DNA from: Planctomycetia bacterium
GTDB taxonomy: Bacteria; Planctomycetota; Phycisphaerae; Phycisphaerales; SM1A02
Assembly: GCA_005792145.1 (NCBI GenBank)
Contig: SXSS01000093.1
Location: forward strand, 1-34,655
Length of the DNA stretch: 34,655 bases
Direction of reading: 5' to 3'
The first letter of the stretch is position 1. Each line of letters begins with the position of its first letter. This document shows, one piece after another, positions 8,543 through 29,176 of this stretch. The notes beneath the pieces are model-generated. The model made no database searches. It saw nothing but the letters and a program-made list of their open reading frames with translations, and was not told where the DNA came from. The position numbers and the translations under genes were made by a program.

Positions 8543-9415
8543 TTAACGGCGCCGACGAGGCTTCACAAGACTCTTGATCGAAGGCCGAGCCGTATCGCCC
8601 CCTTTCGAGCCAATTGCGCCAGTATTTCGTCCATCTTGACGGCCCTGCCCCGCCGCTGCGCCGCCCGAACCTTGCATCTGCGAATTGAGCTCGCGAATTC
8701 TCTGGCGCATCCGAAGAACGCCATTCACCCCACCACCCTGCAAAAACGCGGAAGCCGCGGCATTCGCCTCTGAAAAGAGACCGTCGAAAGTGATTGTGCT
8801 GGTGGCAACATCGATGCTGATTCCCACAACCCCAAGATCGGAGATGATCGAAATAACCGCATCGATCCGTTCATCATCCTTCGCGACATTGCTTGAGATC
8901 AGCGATGCGAGCGCGCGCGTCGTTGTGATGTGGATCGGCTCATTCAATCGACGCATATCAACAACTGCTTGCATTGCGGGTTCCATCTTGTCTCTCGTCA
9001 TCAATTTCACATCGCGCTGTTCTCCATTGAGCACGAAGACTCGGCTTGAAATATTCGCAAGCGCCATTGCTAATGCACGACCTGTTGCAATGTTGCCTTG
9101 CGAATATGGATCGGAGATATCACGCTGACGCTCCTCCGCAGATAAGACTTTATCGATTGAACCGCCCGTGCCACCTGGCGGAACAGTCAATGCTCGAACG
9201 CCCATTTCGTGCAGAAGCCAGAGGCACCACTGAATGTGTGGATCACTCGTGGCTTGCTCTGACGCAAGTCCTTGACCAAGAAGCCCGCCGATCGATGGCG
9301 CGAGAGGTTGCTTGGCAGCAATCAGTGGCAAAATCGCATTGATAACGCTTCCAAGCGTCTCTTGCGATTGAATTGTCAGTTCGATTTGTTGGCCGTTAAG
9401 AATCATTGATGGCAT
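8543..9415 (-). CDS. Hypothetical protein with Gly/Gln-rich, basic C-terminus (...KPRRRR)
   Basis: Long ORF, protein-like composition, TAGGCT hexamer 6 nt upstream of ATG 9415; family not recognised. Confidence 0.7.
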   Translation of the reverse strand: MPSMILNGQQIELTIQSQETLGSVINAILPLIAAKQPLAPSIGGLLGQGLASEQATSDPHIQWCLWLLHEMGVRALTVPPGGTGGSIDKVLSAEERQRDISDPYSQGNIATGRALAMALANISSRVFVLNGEQRDVKLMTRDKMEPAMQAVVDMRRLNEPIHITTTRALASLISSNVAKDDERIDAVISIISDLGVVGISIDVATSTITFDGLFSEANAAASAFLQGGGVNGVLRMRQRIRELNSQMQGSGGAAAGQGRQDGRNTGAIGSKGGDTARPSIKSLVKPRRRR

Positions 9416-9421
9416 ACAAGA

Positions 9422-9442
9422 AGCCTATCGGTTTCGTACCGT
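9422..9442. promoter_or_regulatory. Compact divergent promoter pair in a 33-bp gap
   Basis: - strand TAGGCT 9427-9422, 6 nt before ATG 9415; + strand TACCGT 9437-9442, 6 nt before ATG 9449. Confidence 0.45.
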
Positions 9443-9448
9443 ATTCGC

Positions 9449-11527
9449 ATGCGGAACCAAAAGTTGCTCGTTCGAATTGTCGCGCTTGTTCTTGCGACAT
9501 GTGCAATCACTTCAAATGCGTGTCCAAAAAGTGATCAAATCGCTCCGCCAGATTTCGCGTGGTGGCGAGAGGCGCGATTTGGAATGTTTGTGCATTGGGG
9601 TTTGTACAGCGAAGCTGGAAGTGTTTGGAAGGGACATTTTCTTCCTGGTTGGAGCGAGTGGATGCTCAACCGCAAAAAAATTCCTCCTGCCGAGTATTAC
9701 GCAGAGTTGATGCCAAGATTTGATCCCGCGGATTTCGACGCCAATGCGTGGGTGCTCGCGGCGAAAAATGCTGGGATGAAATACATCGTGATCACGACAA
9801 AGCACCACGAAGGATTTGCGAATTGGCCAAGCGCCGTCAGCGATCAAGATATTGCGGCGACGAAATTTGGAAAGCCGATCGCGGAAGGCGGGCGCGGTCG
9901 CGATCCACTGCGAGAACTTGCCGATGCGTGCGAAGTCCACGGTTTGAAGTTGGGGTTTTATTACTCGCTGTTGGATTGGGCGCATCCGGACTATCTCCCT
10001 CGCCGAGAGTGGGATGCGCGGCCAATTGATGGAGCGCAATATGCGCGTTACACACAGTTCATGCGAGCGCAAGTGAAGGAACTTCTCGATGGTCGTTATG
10101 GAAAAATCGCCGTGCTTTGGGGCGATGGCGACTGGGAGCATGGGGCGCGCGAACACACCAGCGATGAGATTGTTGCGATGGCTCGTGCGTTACAGCCAGG
10201 AATTCTCGTGAACAATCGTTGGGCTCAGCCAGGCGATTATGCGACGCCAGAAAATTTAATCCCAGATGCAATGCTCGATCGTCCGTGGGAGACATGCATG
10301 ACACTCAATGGGTCTTGGGGATATGCGCGTGATGACCATGATTTCAAATCCGCGCCAGCTGTCTTGCAAAATCTCGCCGACATTATTTCCAAGGGCGGAA
10401 ATTATCTTCTGAACATTGGACCTGATGGACGCGGACGCATCGATCCCGAATCACTCGAGGTGCTCGCAGGGATCGGTCGGTGGATGCAAACACATTCGAG
10501 TTCGATTTATAGAAATGGTCATGCAGATCTTCCTGTTCCAGAATGGGGACGATGGACGATGGGCACAAACCAAGAGGGCCGTACAACATTCAATGCGCAT
10601 CTTTTTTCGCCGCCAAAGTCTGGATTGATTCGTCTTGATGGCGTCATCGATGATCCGATAGCGGTGCGTGTGCTTGGTGGAGAGTTTGCTGCGCCGACAT
10701 TTCGTCGAGAGGGTCCAGACTTGATCGTCAAACTTGATCCTTCTGTTCTTGGTGCGATTGCGAAGGCCTCCGCACATTCTGTGATTGCTTTCGATTTCGC
10801 CTCGCAACCCAGAATCATGACCGCGCCGAAAATCTTGGGCGATGATCGGATGTTTGTTGGCACAACGACTGTGCGCTTCGCAGCGCCGCCGACTGGTGCG
10901 ATGATTCATGTCACGACGGATGATTCGCAGCCAAGCATAAACACACTCGCAATCCAAGCGAATGCACAGGGAGAGTTCGCAATCGTGCTCGACCAAACTT
11001 CGACCTTGCGAGCGCGAACAAGTTGGCAGGGAAATATGAGCGATGCCGAGACTGCGATCACTTTCACTCGCAGCGAATTATCGCCAGCGAAAGCGTGTGG
11101 CGATCGTGTTGGACTCGATGCGCGAGTGATCGCTGGCACATTTGAAATCGTTCCAGCGAACGATGCTTTTTCTGGCTCGACACAGCGAAGCGTGATCGAA
11201 TCGGTTGCGATTCCAGTCGGGGTACCTGCGGACCGATACGCGATACAAATTCGCGGCATGATCGATGTGCCAGCAAGCGGTGTCTATCGATTCGAAATCG
11301 CGAGCGATGACGGAAGCGAGTTATGGATCGACGGCGTACTTGTCATCAATAACGGTGGATTGCATGGAGCCACGCCAAAGGTTGGAGATATCGCGCTTGC
11401 GATTGGCTGTCATGATCTTGATGTTCGAATGTTCGAATCCGTTGGAACTGAAGCACTTGTTCTTCGCTGGCGCCTGCCGATGACGACAAACTTTGCGGAG
11501 ATTCCTGTGCAAGCTTTTCGGCATTAG
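9449..11527 (+). CDS. Alpha-L-fucosidase (GH29) with C-terminal PA14-like domain
   Basis: WWREARFGMFVHWGLYSEAGSVWKG; YIVITTKHHEGFANW; GKIAVLWGDGDWEH; GGNYLLNIGPDGRG; C-terminal GVYRFEIASDDGSELWIDGVLVINNGG...LRWRLP. Confidence 0.92.
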   Translation: MRNQKLLVRIVALVLATCAITSNACPKSDQIAPPDFAWWREARFGMFVHWGLYSEAGSVWKGHFLPGWSEWMLNRKKIPPAEYYAELMPRFDPADFDANAWVLAAKNAGMKYIVITTKHHEGFANWPSAVSDQDIAATKFGKPIAEGGRGRDPLRELADACEVHGLKLGFYYSLLDWAHPDYLPRREWDARPIDGAQYARYTQFMRAQVKELLDGRYGKIAVLWGDGDWEHGAREHTSDEIVAMARALQPGILVNNRWAQPGDYATPENLIPDAMLDRPWETCMTLNGSWGYARDDHDFKSAPAVLQNLADIISKGGNYLLNIGPDGRGRIDPESLEVLAGIGRWMQTHSSSIYRNGHADLPVPEWGRWTMGTNQEGRTTFNAHLFSPPKSGLIRLDGVIDDPIAVRVLGGEFAAPTFRREGPDLIVKLDPSVLGAIAKASAHSVIAFDFASQPRIMTAPKILGDDRMFVGTTTVRFAAPPTGAMIHVTTDDSQPSINTLAIQANAQGEFAIVLDQTSTLRARTSWQGNMSDAETAITFTRSELSPAKACGDRVGLDARVIAGTFEIVPANDAFSGSTQRSVIESVAIPVGVPADRYAIQIRGMIDVPASGVYRFEIASDDGSELWIDGVLVINNGGLHGATPKVGDIALAIGCHDLDVRMFESVGTEALVLRWRLPMTTNFAEIPVQAFRH

Positions 11528-11545: not shown

Positions 11546-13369
11546 TCACTTCGCAAGTGGCTGGAGAATGATCCTTCGCAAGTTCATCACTGCAGATCCC
11601 GCCTTCGACAATGGCTTGACCACAATTTCAAAATCGCCCGCAGGGCAAGAGATGATTCCCATGTCTGACGCCTTGAAATCGTACCAGTTTGCGCCAGCCT
11701 GAACGGTCGATTCAACACCCTCAACTCCTGCGTCTGCGACTGAAACGCGAAATCGACTTCCACCTTCAGTTGGAGAGGCGGCGACTTCTGCGATCACTTT
11801 GTATTTTCCTGGAGACTGAAGGCGCAACACCCATCGTGCGGTGCCATCGACATCGGTCCAGTATCCAATGCTGTCGGGCTTTTCTTCATAGATCAAACGG
11901 CCGCGCAACTCGGCGTCCTTCGCCGTCAAATGAAATGTTTGTGTTGCATCTGGGAGAATTGCCTGTGCGATAATTTGAGGTTCGCCAACAATATCGACTG
12001 CGATCACGCTGCTGACATCATCCGGCGCCGTGACTGGAATTGAGATCGACCAACCATCGCCTTGTCGAGATACTTGCGCCGCGAATCCTGTCGCCCCCAA
12101 CAGACGCGCCGAAAGAACTTCGCTGCTCAAACCAGGAATGACGAGCGCGTTGGTATTTCCATCAGCAGATTTCGGCCAATTGAAGACATGGAAATAAAGT
12201 CGCGTCTGACCGTTGGGCAACGGCTTCTTCGTGCATCGTCCCCATGGGAGGCGAACAAATGGACTCGCGTAGGTGCCATAAATTGCATCGCCGTTTGTTT
12301 CCATCCATTGACCGATTCGCATGAGCCGATCGATTGATTCTTGTGGAATCTGACCGTTGGCTTGCGGACCAACATTCAGCAGAAAGTTTCCACCCTTGCT
12401 GGCAATATCACAAAGCATGCGGATCATTTCTTGAGCACTTTTCCAATTATGGTCATCGCTCCTGAATCCCCACGTGTCGTTCATGGTCATACATGTTTCC
12501 CAATCACGACCTGGAAATCCTGTCGAAGGAACTTCTTGCTCAGGAGTTCCATAATCGCCAGCCCAATCCCCTTCGCCGTTCATGCCAGCCATTCCCGATC
12601 GCCCTTTGTCAACGCGATTGTTGATGATGATGTCTGGATCGAGCGATTGAACATACTTTGCAAGATCAAGACCACGCTCGTGCGTCCAAGACTCTTCCCA
12701 TTCTCCGTCGAACCAGAGAATTCCAATCTTGCCATACTTGCCAGAGACCAATTCTTTCAATTGCTCTTTCATATATCCGATGTATCGATCGAAGTCAGCG
12801 TCCTCATCCTTGCGTGGATCCCATGAACGGTGCGGAACATAATCGTCGTGTGTCCAATCCATAATCGAGTGATAAAAACACAGTTGAATGCCGCCGCGCT
12901 CGCATGCACGCGCAAGTTCCAACAAGATATCCCGCTTGAATGGAGTTGCCATCACATCAAAATTTGAAACCTTCGAATTCCAAAGTGCAAATCCATCATG
13001 ATGTTTGCTGGTGATGACGATGTACTTCTGGCCAGCAAGTTTTGCGATGCGAACCCACTCATCCGCATTGAAATCAATCGGGTTGAATTGATCTTGCAAC
13101 TTCATGTATTGCGCCGGCTGAATTTTTCCCGAGTTCAAAATCCACTCGCCTATGCCGGCAATCGACTTGCCGTCCCATTGACCAGCTGGAATTGCGTAAA
13201 GCCCCCAGTGAATGAACATACCGAAGCGTGCGTCGCGGAACCATCCCATGCGTCGATCAAGATCGGCTTTCGCTGCGGTTGGTGCTGGTAGAGCCGGAGC
13301 CTGCGCCAGAGATTTTGTTGGAAAGATCGAGGCCAGAACCACAACGCAACAAAAAATTATTATTCGCAT
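11546..13369 (-). CDS. Alpha-L-fucosidase (GH29), second architecture
   Basis: RDARFGMFIHWGLYAIPAGQW; YIVITSKHHDGFALW; GKIGILWFDGEWEE; GGNFLLNVGPQANG. ATG 13369 gives a signal peptide (MRIIIFCCVVVLASIFPTKSLAQ); the track start at 13537 runs into tlpA-like. Confidence 0.92.
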   Translation of the reverse strand: MRIIIFCCVVVLASIFPTKSLAQAPALPAPTAAKADLDRRMGWFRDARFGMFIHWGLYAIPAGQWDGKSIAGIGEWILNSGKIQPAQYMKLQDQFNPIDFNADEWVRIAKLAGQKYIVITSKHHDGFALWNSKVSNFDVMATPFKRDILLELARACERGGIQLCFYHSIMDWTHDDYVPHRSWDPRKDEDADFDRYIGYMKEQLKELVSGKYGKIGILWFDGEWEESWTHERGLDLAKYVQSLDPDIIINNRVDKGRSGMAGMNGEGDWAGDYGTPEQEVPSTGFPGRDWETCMTMNDTWGFRSDDHNWKSAQEMIRMLCDIASKGGNFLLNVGPQANGQIPQESIDRLMRIGQWMETNGDAIYGTYASPFVRLPWGRCTKKPLPNGQTRLYFHVFNWPKSADGNTNALVIPGLSSEVLSARLLGATGFAAQVSRQGDGWSISIPVTAPDDVSSVIAVDIVGEPQIIAQAILPDATQTFHLTAKDAELRGRLIYEEKPDSIGYWTDVDGTARWVLRLQSPGKYKVIAEVAASPTEGGSRFRVSVADAGVEGVESTVQAGANWYDFKASDMGIISCPAGDFEIVVKPLSKAGSAVMNLRRIILQPLAK

Positions 13370-13373
13370 CAGG

Positions 13374-13943
13374 TCAGCGTACTGCAGTATCTGCCGCTCG
13401 CATCGCTTCCGCCAATTGGGTAAAGCTGTGCGAACCAACCATCGTCTGCGACAAGGTTCCATCGCGGCGGAGAATAAAAATCGTCGGGATTGAGCGCACG
13501 GACGAAAATGGTTTGCCCGTAGGCGGCGCGGGTGCAACCATCGGATACGAAATTGCTTTACCAGTCAGAAATTTTGTCACGGTTGCTTTCGGTTCATTGG
13601 AAACTCCAATGATGACGAGATCATTTGGATACGCCTGTGCGAGTTGTTCCAGAGCTGGAAGAGTCGCTCGACACGGACCGCACCATGTCGCCCAGAAATC
13701 AATAAAGACAATTTTTCCTTTCAATGTCGCGGGATTCAATTCGCGACCATCAAACGAAGTAAATGAATAGTTTGGTCCCGCGACTGGCGCGACTGGTGCG
13801 ACTGGTGCGACTGGTGCGACTGGTGCGACTTTCTCACTTGCAGTCGACGCGTTGAATACAGCAAGAACAATCACGCCTGTAATGGCGACGCTTGCAATCA
13901 AAGATGCAGCGATCTTGAACGACTTTATGCCAATGCTTTTCAT
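13374..13943 (-). CDS. TlpA/ResA-like membrane-anchored thioredoxin
   Basis: N-terminal TM segment; [22 protein letters not shown]. Confidence 0.92.
13780..13830 (-). repeat. ~5.7 x 9-bp tandem repeat (gcgactggt) encoding VAP repeats in the thioredoxin linker
   Basis: Near-perfect 9-bp period; protein [18 protein letters not shown]. Confidence 0.92.
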
Positions 13944-13949
13944 ATGCGT

Positions 13950-13957
13950 CTTATACT
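13950..13957. promoter_or_regulatory. Overlapping divergent -10 boxes serving the thioredoxin (-) and MFS (+) genes
   Basis: + strand TATACT 13952-13957, 6 nt before ATG 13964; - strand TATAAG 13955-13950, 6 nt before ATG 13943. Confidence 0.6.
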
Positions 13958-13963
13958 CGCTCT

Positions 13964-15373
13964 ATGACCGAACCGAATAAGCCCGACAGACGATGGCTGA
14001 CATTGTTTGCCATGACGGGGTCACTCTCAATGATTATGCTTGATTCCACGGTGCTTGGCGTCGCATTGCCAAGTATTCGACAAGATTTGAAATTTGATGA
14101 TTCGTCTTTGGCGTGGGCCGTCAATGGATATCTCCTTGCGATGGCTTCGTGGGTCGCGATTGGCGGAAAGCTTGGTGATTGGATGGGGCGGATCAATGCG
14201 TTTCGTTTGGGCATGATTGGATTTATGATCGCATCAATCGGATGTGCGCTTGCGCCAACTGCATGGGTCTTTATCACCGCGCGAGTTATTCAGGGAATTT
14301 GTGCAGGAACGATGCAACCCGCAAGCGCTGCGATTGTGATCGATATTTATCCTGCAAATCAGCGCGGACGCGCAATGGCGACATATGCCGGTATATCACT
14401 TTTGTTTATGGCGGGCGGTCCGCTGATCGGCGGAGCTCTAGTGCAATTTGCATCTTGGAATTGGTGCTTCTGGCTGAATGTTCCCATCGCACTCATTTCA
14501 ATCGGACTGACATTGACGCTGCGAATGAAATCCACCCGCGCCACAACAGCAAAAACCGACTGGGCATCGATTCTGATCTTGCTTGTCGGTACCCCATTGT
14601 TAGTCAGCGGATTTCAAGAGCTTGGACTTCACGGCCCCACAACAAAACCTGCTTGGCTTTTAATCGTGGTTGGCGGCGTGCTCTTGTTTGTGTTCGCGCA
14701 TCGGCAATTCCGATTGACACAACCGACAATTGATCTGAGGCTCTTTCGAGATCGAGGGTTCTTTGGAGACGCATTCTTATTGTTATGCGTCAGCTTTATC
14801 AATGTGGGCCAAGGAATTTATGGATCCTTATATATGCAAAATTTTCTGGGATTCACGCCAATGCAAGCAGGACTAGGGACGCTTCCGCTGCTTGTCCCCG
14901 TTCTGGGCATCATTCACTTTGCAGGACGAATGTATGACAATCACGGCCCGCGCCGCCCAATCATTTTGGGGCTTTCCTTCGTGCTGACTGGAACGGTGAT
15001 TGAAACAATTGGCGTCTTCGCCCTGAGCTATCCAATTCTTGCGATTGGAATGACTGTGCTCGGAATGGGATGTGGATTTGCAATGAGCCCCGCGAACGCC
15101 GATTCTCTTTCGCGTGCACCGATCGCCCAGCGCGGTGAAGCAAGCGGACTTGTACAAATGATGCGACAGTTTGGATCCACCATTGGCATCGCATTGATGG
15201 TGCTTGTGATGCATGGTTTGGCTTCGCCCACCGCGACAGAAAATGCGCCATCAACATTGACCGCGCGCGATATCGGATTTGGATTTGGTCTTCATGCCAT
15301 CGTTGCGTTGACGGCATTCATAGTTGCATATTTTTGCATTCAGCCAAAGGCGGAACCACAAATGCAAAGTTGA
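13964..15373 (+). CDS. MFS transporter, DHA2 (EmrB/QacA) family
   Basis: LDSTVLGVALPSIRQDL; IGGKLGDWMGR; ARVIQGICAGTMQPAS; multiple TM segments. Confidence 0.92.
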   Translation: MTEPNKPDRRWLTLFAMTGSLSMIMLDSTVLGVALPSIRQDLKFDDSSLAWAVNGYLLAMASWVAIGGKLGDWMGRINAFRLGMIGFMIASIGCALAPTAWVFITARVIQGICAGTMQPASAAIVIDIYPANQRGRAMATYAGISLLFMAGGPLIGGALVQFASWNWCFWLNVPIALISIGLTLTLRMKSTRATTAKTDWASILILLVGTPLLVSGFQELGLHGPTTKPAWLLIVVGGVLLFVFAHRQFRLTQPTIDLRLFRDRGFFGDAFLLLCVSFINVGQGIYGSLYMQNFLGFTPMQAGLGTLPLLVPVLGIIHFAGRMYDNHGPRRPIILGLSFVLTGTVIETIGVFALSYPILAIGMTVLGMGCGFAMSPANADSLSRAPIAQRGEASGLVQMMRQFGSTIGIALMVLVMHGLASPTATENAPSTLTARDIGFGFGLHAIVALTAFIVAYFCIQPKAEPQMQS

Positions 15374-27469: not shown

Positions 27470-27562
27470 TGCCGAACCTCCAATTTCCCAAGAGTATCCG
27501 ACAGTCCGATGAAGCGCGACACCGAATTCCATCCTGCATCCCAATGATCTATTCTGCTCATC

Positions 27563-29176
27563 GTGAAGCCGCGCATTTCAAATACCCCCTGCGTTCTGAT
27601 TGTTCGGGATGGTTGGGGTCGAAATCCGCATCCTTCGCACGATGCCTTCAATGCGCTGCGCTTGGCCAAAGCCCCTGTCGACGCTCAACTCTCCCGCGAT
27701 TTTCCCACCGTTCTGATTCGAACCAGCGGAGAAGATGTTGGTTTGCCAATCGATTCGAGCGGGCCAGTGATGGGAAATTCCGAAGTCGGCCATCAAAACA
27801 TTGGCGCAGGAAGAATCGTTGATCAAGAACTGATGCGAATCTCCCACGCCATTCGCGACGGACGCTTTGCATCCAACACAACCATGCTCGATGCTTTCAA
27901 GCGCGGCAAGGAAACCGGCCGAAGCGTTCACTTGATGGGATTGGTCAGTGATGGACAAGTTCATAGCGATATCTCGCATCTTGTTGCGCTTCTGGAACTC
28001 GCTCGCAAATGTGACTTCCCAAAGGAACGCCTCTTTGTTCATGTCTTTACTGACGGCCGAGATTGTCCGCCAAAATCTGCGCTGGGATTTATCGAAACGC
28101 TCGAAACTGCGCTCAAAGAAAATGGCGGAAGAATCGCAACGGTGATTGGCCGATTCTTTGCGATGGATCGAGATCATCGCTGGGATCGTGTCATACAAGC
28201 GTGGGAATGTTTGCTTGGAAGAAGCACGCGAATTTGTGACAACGCCGCGGATGCAGTTGAACTTCACTATGCATCGCCAACTTCATCCAGCCAGACCAGC
28301 GACGAATTTATTCCCGCAACTCGAATCTCTGGAGTTGACGGCGCAATCCGCGATGGAGACAGCGTGATCTTTTTCAATTTCCGTGGCGATCGGCCACGAG
28401 AGATCGTGAAGACTTTTCTCTTTTCGGAGAGCGCGTTTCGTGATTTGCCCAATGGTGGATTTGATCGCGGCGCGATTCCAAAGGATTTATTTTTCTGCAC
28501 GATGGCACAGTACGAGCGAGGATTGCCGGTTCATGTGATCTTTGACCGACCTGCTCCGATGAAAGATATTTTGGGATCGTGGCTTGCCGATCATTCCCTT
28601 CGACAATTTCGCTGCGCTGAAACTGAAAAGTTTCCGCATGTCACATTTTTCTTTAACGATTATCGAGAGGATCCATTTCAGGGCGAGACTCGCACAATTA
28701 TTCCAAGTCCGCGTGATATTCCGACATACGACTTGAAGCCAGAGATGAGTGCCGCCGGCGTTCGCGATGCTGTTTTACGCAGAATTGCTGCGAGAGACTG
28801 CGAAGATGTGATCATCGTCAACTTTGCGAATTGCGATATGGTTGGTCACACAGGAAGTTTGCCCGCAGCAATTCAAGCTGTCGAGGTTGTGGATGCCTGC
28901 GTCGGCAAGATCGTTGATGCGGTCTTGGCGCGTGGCGGATCGCTTGTCATCACTGCGGATCATGGAAATGTAGAGCAGATGAAAGATCCGATCACCGGCG
29001 CGCCCCACACAGCGCATACAAATTATGATGTGCCGCTGATGATTGTCGGCAATTCGTTTCGAGGACGATCGCTACGCGTTGATGGCAGACTTGCAGATAT
29101 CGCACCGACGATGCTCGACATGATGGGTATGGCTATTCCAGATGCGATGACGGGTCGATCGCTCTTGTTGCCATAA
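27563..29176 (+). CDS. gpmI: 2,3-bisphosphoglycerate-independent phosphoglycerate mutase
   Basis: CVLIVRDGWG; MGNSEVGHQNIGAGRIVDQ; HVFTDGRDCPPKS; FNFRGDRPREI; ITADHGNVEQM. GTG start. Confidence 0.95.
   Translation: MKPRISNTPCVLIVRDGWGRNPHPSHDAFNALRLAKAPVDAQLSRDFPTVLIRTSGEDVGLPIDSSGPVMGNSEVGHQNIGAGRIVDQELMRISHAIRDGRFASNTTMLDAFKRGKETGRSVHLMGLVSDGQVHSDISHLVALLELARKCDFPKERLFVHVFTDGRDCPPKSALGFIETLETALKENGGRIATVIGRFFAMDRDHRWDRVIQAWECLLGRSTRICDNAADAVELHYASPTSSSQTSDEFIPATRISGVDGAIRDGDSVIFFNFRGDRPREIVKTFLFSESAFRDLPNGGFDRGAIPKDLFFCTMAQYERGLPVHVIFDRPAPMKDILGSWLADHSLRQFRCAETEKFPHVTFFFNDYREDPFQGETRTIIPSPRDIPTYDLKPEMSAAGVRDAVLRRIAARDCEDVIIVNFANCDMVGHTGSLPAAIQAVEVVDACVGKIVDAVLARGGSLVITADHGNVEQMKDPITGAPHTAHTNYDVPLMIVGNSFRGRSLRVDGRLADIAPTMLDMMGMAIPDAMTGRSLLLP

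Follow-up and report, generated by a model that had tools for sequence, protein, structure and literature searches.

Bacterial bidirectional promoters that arise from the symmetry of the -10 element are known (Warman et al. 2021, Nat Microbiol 6:746, as cited in PMC12825309 and PMC10268837). They are defined by a pair of divergent transcription start sites (TSSs) lying 7-25 bp apart (PMC12825309, PMC10268837). The commonest register in enteric bacteria is 18 bp, with positions -7 and -11 coinciding, and this register is not obligatory (PMC10268837). Five bidirectional promoters of E. coli show no competition at basal activity, and interference appears only when one direction is strongly activated (PMC12825309). 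Leaderless transcription units, in which the -10 element lies just upstream of the ATG, are described in Mycobacterium tuberculosis (PMC3898074) and in Deinococcus-Thermus (as cited in PMC5397173). The comparative survey of PMC5397173 includes only one genome of the Planctomycetes. Divergent genes with overlapping promoters also occur in the control regions of the EcoRV and CfrBI restriction-modification systems (PMC5333194).

The window analysed here is the whole 34,655-nt stretch of contig SXSS01000093.1 from a Planctomycetia bacterium (GCA_005792145.1; G000 below). It contains a 20-bp gap (13944-13963) between divergent thioredoxin and MFS transporter genes. Like the promoters of Warman, Grainger and colleagues, this gap has overlapping -10 elements on opposite strands between divergent genes, and the predicted TSS separation of 18-21 bp falls inside the 7-25 bp definition. 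Unlike those promoters, both RNAs are mRNAs predicted to have no or almost no leader; the word "leaderless" is absent from PMC12825309 and PMC10268837. The 18-bp register of E. coli and Salmonella differs from the 21 bp of register A at this site (see below) and from the commonest short-gap class in this genome, in which the opposing boxes share TA (23 bp with 6-nt spacers). As in the leaderless units of M. tuberculosis and Deinococcus-Thermus, a TAnnnT hexamer precedes the ATG by about 6 nt with no Shine-Dalgarno motif. Unlike in those units, two starts face apart over one shared -10.

The RNA polymerase sites of the two divergent genes overlap so that one would exclude the other, as in EcoRV and CfrBI. 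Those systems are regulated (EcoRV by its C protein), whereas here the divergent partner is not a regulator gene and none is adjacent. The EcoRV C transcript, unlike those predicted here, is not leaderless (PMC5333194). A doubly leaderless divergent promoter as a conserved, recurrent module was not found in the literature searched, which covered few subscription journals. The new element would be that a known type of promoter recurs here in a conserved form with both transcripts leaderless, and this form is ordinary within its own genome.

Structure of the thioredoxin/MFS gap

The minus-strand gene (13374-13943) encodes a 189-aa TlpA/ResA-like thioredoxin-fold protein with an N-terminal hydrophobic segment (Pfam Thioredoxin/AhpC-TSA; NCBIfam ResA-like match below cut-off). 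The plus-strand gene (13964-15373) encodes a 469-aa MFS transporter of the DHA2/EmrB type (Pfam MFS_1, E 2e-49; TIGR00711, E 9e-60, below cut-off). The gap is bounded by the thioredoxin start codon (CAT, 13941-13943) and the MFS start codon (ATG at 13964). Both ATGs, as called in the initial annotation, match the ortholog N-termini in seven congeners. The gap consists of ATGCGT (13944-13949), CTTATACT (13950-13957) and CGCTCT (13958-13963). These letters, their coordinates and the 6-nt spacers on both sides are exactly as the initial annotation gave them.

The -10 element of the MFS gene, TATACT (13952-13957, plus strand), has a 6-nt spacer to the ATG and scores +9.0 against the genome's own -10 profile. 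On the minus strand, the candidate -10 of the thioredoxin gene in register A is TATAAG (13950-13955). It also has a 6-nt spacer and shares TATA (13952-13955) with TATACT. This hexamer lacks the -7 T, and its profile score is poor (-0.4). The layout, described initially as almost perfectly symmetric, is thus near-symmetric, with an imperfect minus-strand hexamer. An alternative minus-strand -10 in register B, GAGTAT (13953-13958), has a 9-nt spacer and contains both the -11 A and the -7 T. Register A, at the modal spacing, predicts a TSS at the A of the thioredoxin ATG and a TSS pair 21 bp apart. Register B places the TSS about 3 nt before the ATG and the pair about 18 bp apart. The reciprocal coincidence of -7 and -11 would hold if the minus strand uses GAGTAT, and would not with TATAAG. 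Both forms are mildly enriched before other starts (TA...G at spacers 6-10, 1.9-fold, p 8e-4; GA.TAT, 2.7-fold, p 0.025). By either register, the thioredoxin leader is predicted to be 0-3 nt.

Besides the boxes in the gap, there is no TAnnnT, TATAAn or TATAnT within 150 nt upstream of either start, and no -35 consensus is visible on either side. Shine-Dalgarno scores are negative at both starts, and the 6-nt spacing on both sides equals the modal spacing of the genome.

Two other features lie within the thioredoxin coding sequence. A short tandem repeat at 13781-13830 (gcgactggtgcgactggt...) encodes a repeated VAP-type linker between the N-terminal hydrophobic segment and the domain. At the 3' end, a TACGCT -10 (13376-13381) is positioned 6 nt before the start, at 13369, of the downstream fucosidase gene. 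Two genes of the alpha-L-fucosidase family lie tail to tail beside the site, at 9449-11527 (plus) and 11546-13369 (minus).

Conservation within the genus

Nine genomes, including this one, keep the gene pair with a gap of 20-24 bp and a shared -10 core, which answers the conservation check proposed in the initial annotation. The gaps of G000 and G013 are identical, and that of G012 has two extra bases. The gaps of G008, G002, G016, G018 and G005 have few changes. All eight of these genomes have a 20-22 bp gap and hold TTATACTC. In the same comparisons, the four-fold degenerate sites of both genes are 32-69% identical. The gap core is therefore not a product of chance, since it is kept where synonymous sites have diverged to this extent.

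In the ninth genome, G007, the gap reads CAT-GAACACTC-ACATTACACT-CGAACC-ATG between an intact thioredoxin frame and the MFS gene. Each strand has a complete TAnnnT box there, TAATGT at 8 nt and TACACT at 6 nt, and the two boxes share TA.

In seven further congeners, no thioredoxin ortholog was found next to the MFS gene, and all of them keep TATACT-N6-ATG. With the G007 variant counted, the plus-strand -10 of the MFS promoter is present in 16 genomes. The exceptions to the 6-nt spacer are G016 (8) and G005 (3 or 6, according to the choice between two adjacent ATGs). The opposing hexamer is TATAAG or TATAAA in eight of the thioredoxin-bearing genomes, versus TATAGA or TATAGG in the seven without thioredoxin. 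G at that hexamer position is rare among the -10 elements of G000 (0.10). This pattern points to the leaderless MFS promoter as the older element and to retention of the opposing box wherever the thioredoxin gene is present. The thioredoxin-bearing genomes could be a single clade, in which case the contrast between A and G may reflect one ancestral change. In most of these genomes the core is flanked by GCG and CGC arms, which are changed in G002 (CGG/CGA) and in G007.

The plus-strand promoter is well supported by its full -10, its modal spacing and its presence in 16 genomes. The minus-strand promoter is less certain.

A second pair and cross-genome patterns

A second divergent pair is present on contig 37 of G000 (L099, 18728-18751), where an M42 aminopeptidase gene and a GcvT-domain gene are separated by a 22-bp gap of the form CAT-N6-AGTCTATGAT-N6-ATG. 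Of 19 genomes in the genus, 14 carry the general pattern, CAT-N6-AnnnTAnnnT-N6-ATG, at a place where its end coincides with the GcvT-domain start. The orthology of these GcvT-domain genes was checked by comparing the coordinates of protein matches with those of the pattern, down to 56% protein identity, and the M42 aminopeptidase neighbour was identified in G000 only.

Across 61 genomes, the TA-shared pattern has 25 matches in the genus, 14 of which are this one orthologous pair. The remaining 11 compare with five in the control, a weak excess. With one pair so dominant, these counts speak for conservation and not for an enrichment in general. The TATA-centred pattern has few matches. In another family of the same order (f2), each of G037, G042, G046 and G050 carries CAT-N6-AnnnTAnnnT-N6-ATG with an almost identical core (AGCGTAGACT, in one or the other orientation). 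These four sites are probably one orthologous divergent pair.

Start signals and short divergent gaps across the genome

The genome-wide analysis covered 1.12 Mb of G000, a genome of 2.5 Mb in 152 contigs of which the window is contig 47, with genes called by codon usage. At spacer 6 before in-frame ATGs there are 73 TAnnnT hexamers, versus a background of about 10 per position, and at spacers 7-11 there are 20-43 per position. After iterative refinement of starts, a -10 of the form TA[CGT]N[AC]T precedes 292 of 731 starts (288 in a first run). This proportion, 40%, is an estimate because the starts were refined with the same motif; the raw spacer count is free of that circularity. Spacer 6 is the mode among the -10-bearing starts (87 sites). 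In the control, a -10 precedes 83 of 6377 internal ATGs (1.3%). Only 40 of the 731 starts are Shine-Dalgarno-like. Given the sharp spacer peak and the few Shine-Dalgarno starts, leaderless-type -10 boxes are the commonest start signal found.

Translation without a Shine-Dalgarno leader appears to be usual for the lineage. TANACT-N6-ATG exceeds its reversed control in most, although not all, of 61 relatives. The -10 signal before starts is weaker in two relatives of higher GC content (0.4 Mb each of G027 and G046 was sampled). No -35 consensus was found across the leaderless class of G000. Exact TATACT and TATAAG are rare at the 6-nt spacing among ATG candidates, so the thioredoxin/MFS site is supported by its conservation and by the TAnnnT class in general.

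The 1.12 Mb contains 120 divergent pairs. Their gaps are at most 60 bp in 41 pairs and at most 30 bp in 17, and the 25th percentile is 49 bp. In 26 of the 41 gaps of 60 bp or less, -10 boxes are present on both sides. Opposing hexamers share the central TA exactly (AnnnTAnnnT) in seven pairs. An A four bases ahead of a -10 completes the opposing box. It is present at 19 of 41 leaderless-type starts whose divergent neighbour is no more than 40 bp away and at 36 of 230 elsewhere (Fisher p 3e-5, short divergent gaps versus other contexts). In G027, a family relative with 67% GC, all 52 divergent gaps are longer than 60 bp.

The initial annotation viewed the layout at 13944-13963 as unusually minimal. 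Within this genome it is not, as gaps of 18-37 bp with a -10 box for each gene are found in many divergent pairs. Uniqueness of the layout to this site was likewise rejected, similar short two-sided gaps being frequent in the genome.

The window contains two other short divergent gaps. At 9415-9449, a 33-bp gap carries TAGGCT (minus) and TACCGT (plus), both of which are complete, lie 6 nt from their own ATG and do not overlap. The plus-strand gene of this pair is an alpha-L-fucosidase with a PA14 domain. At 27532-27563, a 30-bp gap separates the genes for a protein with an alanine-racemase N domain and a phosphoglycerate mutase (iPGM, GTG start). Here TATTCT lies at 7 nt on the plus strand, and the minus strand has only GATCAT at 11 nt.

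Discussion

The modal 6-nt spacing and the genus-wide conservation make a -10 shared by two genes the best-supported reading of the gap, as initially proposed, with "leaderless" widened to "leaderless or near-leaderless". We give a probability of roughly 0.7 to the gap being a bidirectional, sigma-70-type promoter core from which both transcripts are leaderless or nearly so. Because the TATACT box is near-palindromic, RNA polymerase could also load in the opposite orientation, through TATAAG or GAGTAT, and would then transcribe the thioredoxin gene. Each transcript would start at its own ATG or within about 3 nt of it and would be translated without a Shine-Dalgarno leader. As the -10 elements overlap, the core would take one polymerase at a time, and initiation would alternate between directions, with exclusion per event. 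The analysis shows the sequence and its geometry, the -10 spacing signal across the genome and the conservation between species; the TSS positions, two-way use by polymerase, leaderless translation and interference at 13944-13963 are all inferred from these.

The claim that the two genes are mutually exclusive per event thus holds only in part: a bound polymerase would exclude a second one, but the five E. coli promoters do not compete at their basal level (PMC12825309). Coupling is therefore expected only under strong induction, and interference between directions would occur only when one side is strongly driven. Since the leaderless class has no -35 consensus, upstream DNA embedded in the coding sequence of the partner gene may cost little.

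It is also conceivable, although unlikely, that the gap contains only the MFS promoter and that a promoter within the MFS coding sequence drives the thioredoxin gene, whose mRNA would have a normal leader. The missing -7 T of TATAAG is consistent with this, and the MFS gene alone would explain most of the core, because its promoter exists without thioredoxin in the seven congeners. However, TATAAG is the only minus-strand TAnnnT, TATAAn or TATAnT within 150 nt upstream of the thioredoxin start. The base that completes the minus-strand TATAA is not needed by the plus-strand hexamer, and it is present in eight thioredoxin-bearing genomes and absent from the seven without thioredoxin. The gap of G007 also contains a complete minus-strand -10.

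Alternatively, a regulator of both genes might use the conserved GCGTCTTATACTCGC chiefly as its operator, and the promoters would then be incidental. Regulators commonly control MFS efflux genes, and the GCG and CGC arms, kept in most thioredoxin-bearing genomes, would fit an operator just as well. This is improbable, as the arms change in G002 and G007 where the -10-like boxes stay, and the divergent partner is not a regulator gene; an operator would in any case be compatible with a promoter. Least probable of all is that the short gap simply results from genome compaction, its symmetry having no function beyond the sharing of AT-rich bases. The small genome, its generally short divergent gaps and the lack of such gaps in the GC-rich family relative agree with compaction. 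Compaction accounts for the origin of such gaps but not for a core conserved despite synonymous divergence, nor for the preferential sharing of TA by opposing -10s in short gaps.

The shared, bidirectional promoter core is therefore preferred at this site. For the lineage as a whole, the chances are about even that it uses a recurrent module, approximately 20-27 bp long, whose single -10 dyad (AnnnTAnnnT or TATA-centred) serves two back-to-back leaderless mRNAs. Such a module would be conserved for specific gene pairs across the genus, and the choice of orientation would set the protein ratio without a 5' UTR.

In these genomes a -10 box is a commoner mark of a gene start than a Shine-Dalgarno motif, which is a caution for gene finders. 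Dozens of candidate sites are present in the genome, and some are kept across species. If both transcripts start in the core, the thioredoxin/MFS gap would be close to the smallest possible promoter for two genes. It would lack UTRs and any promoter DNA private to one gene, and upstream elements would lie within the partner's coding sequence. The orientation in which polymerase binds may then, by itself, set the output of the paired genes.
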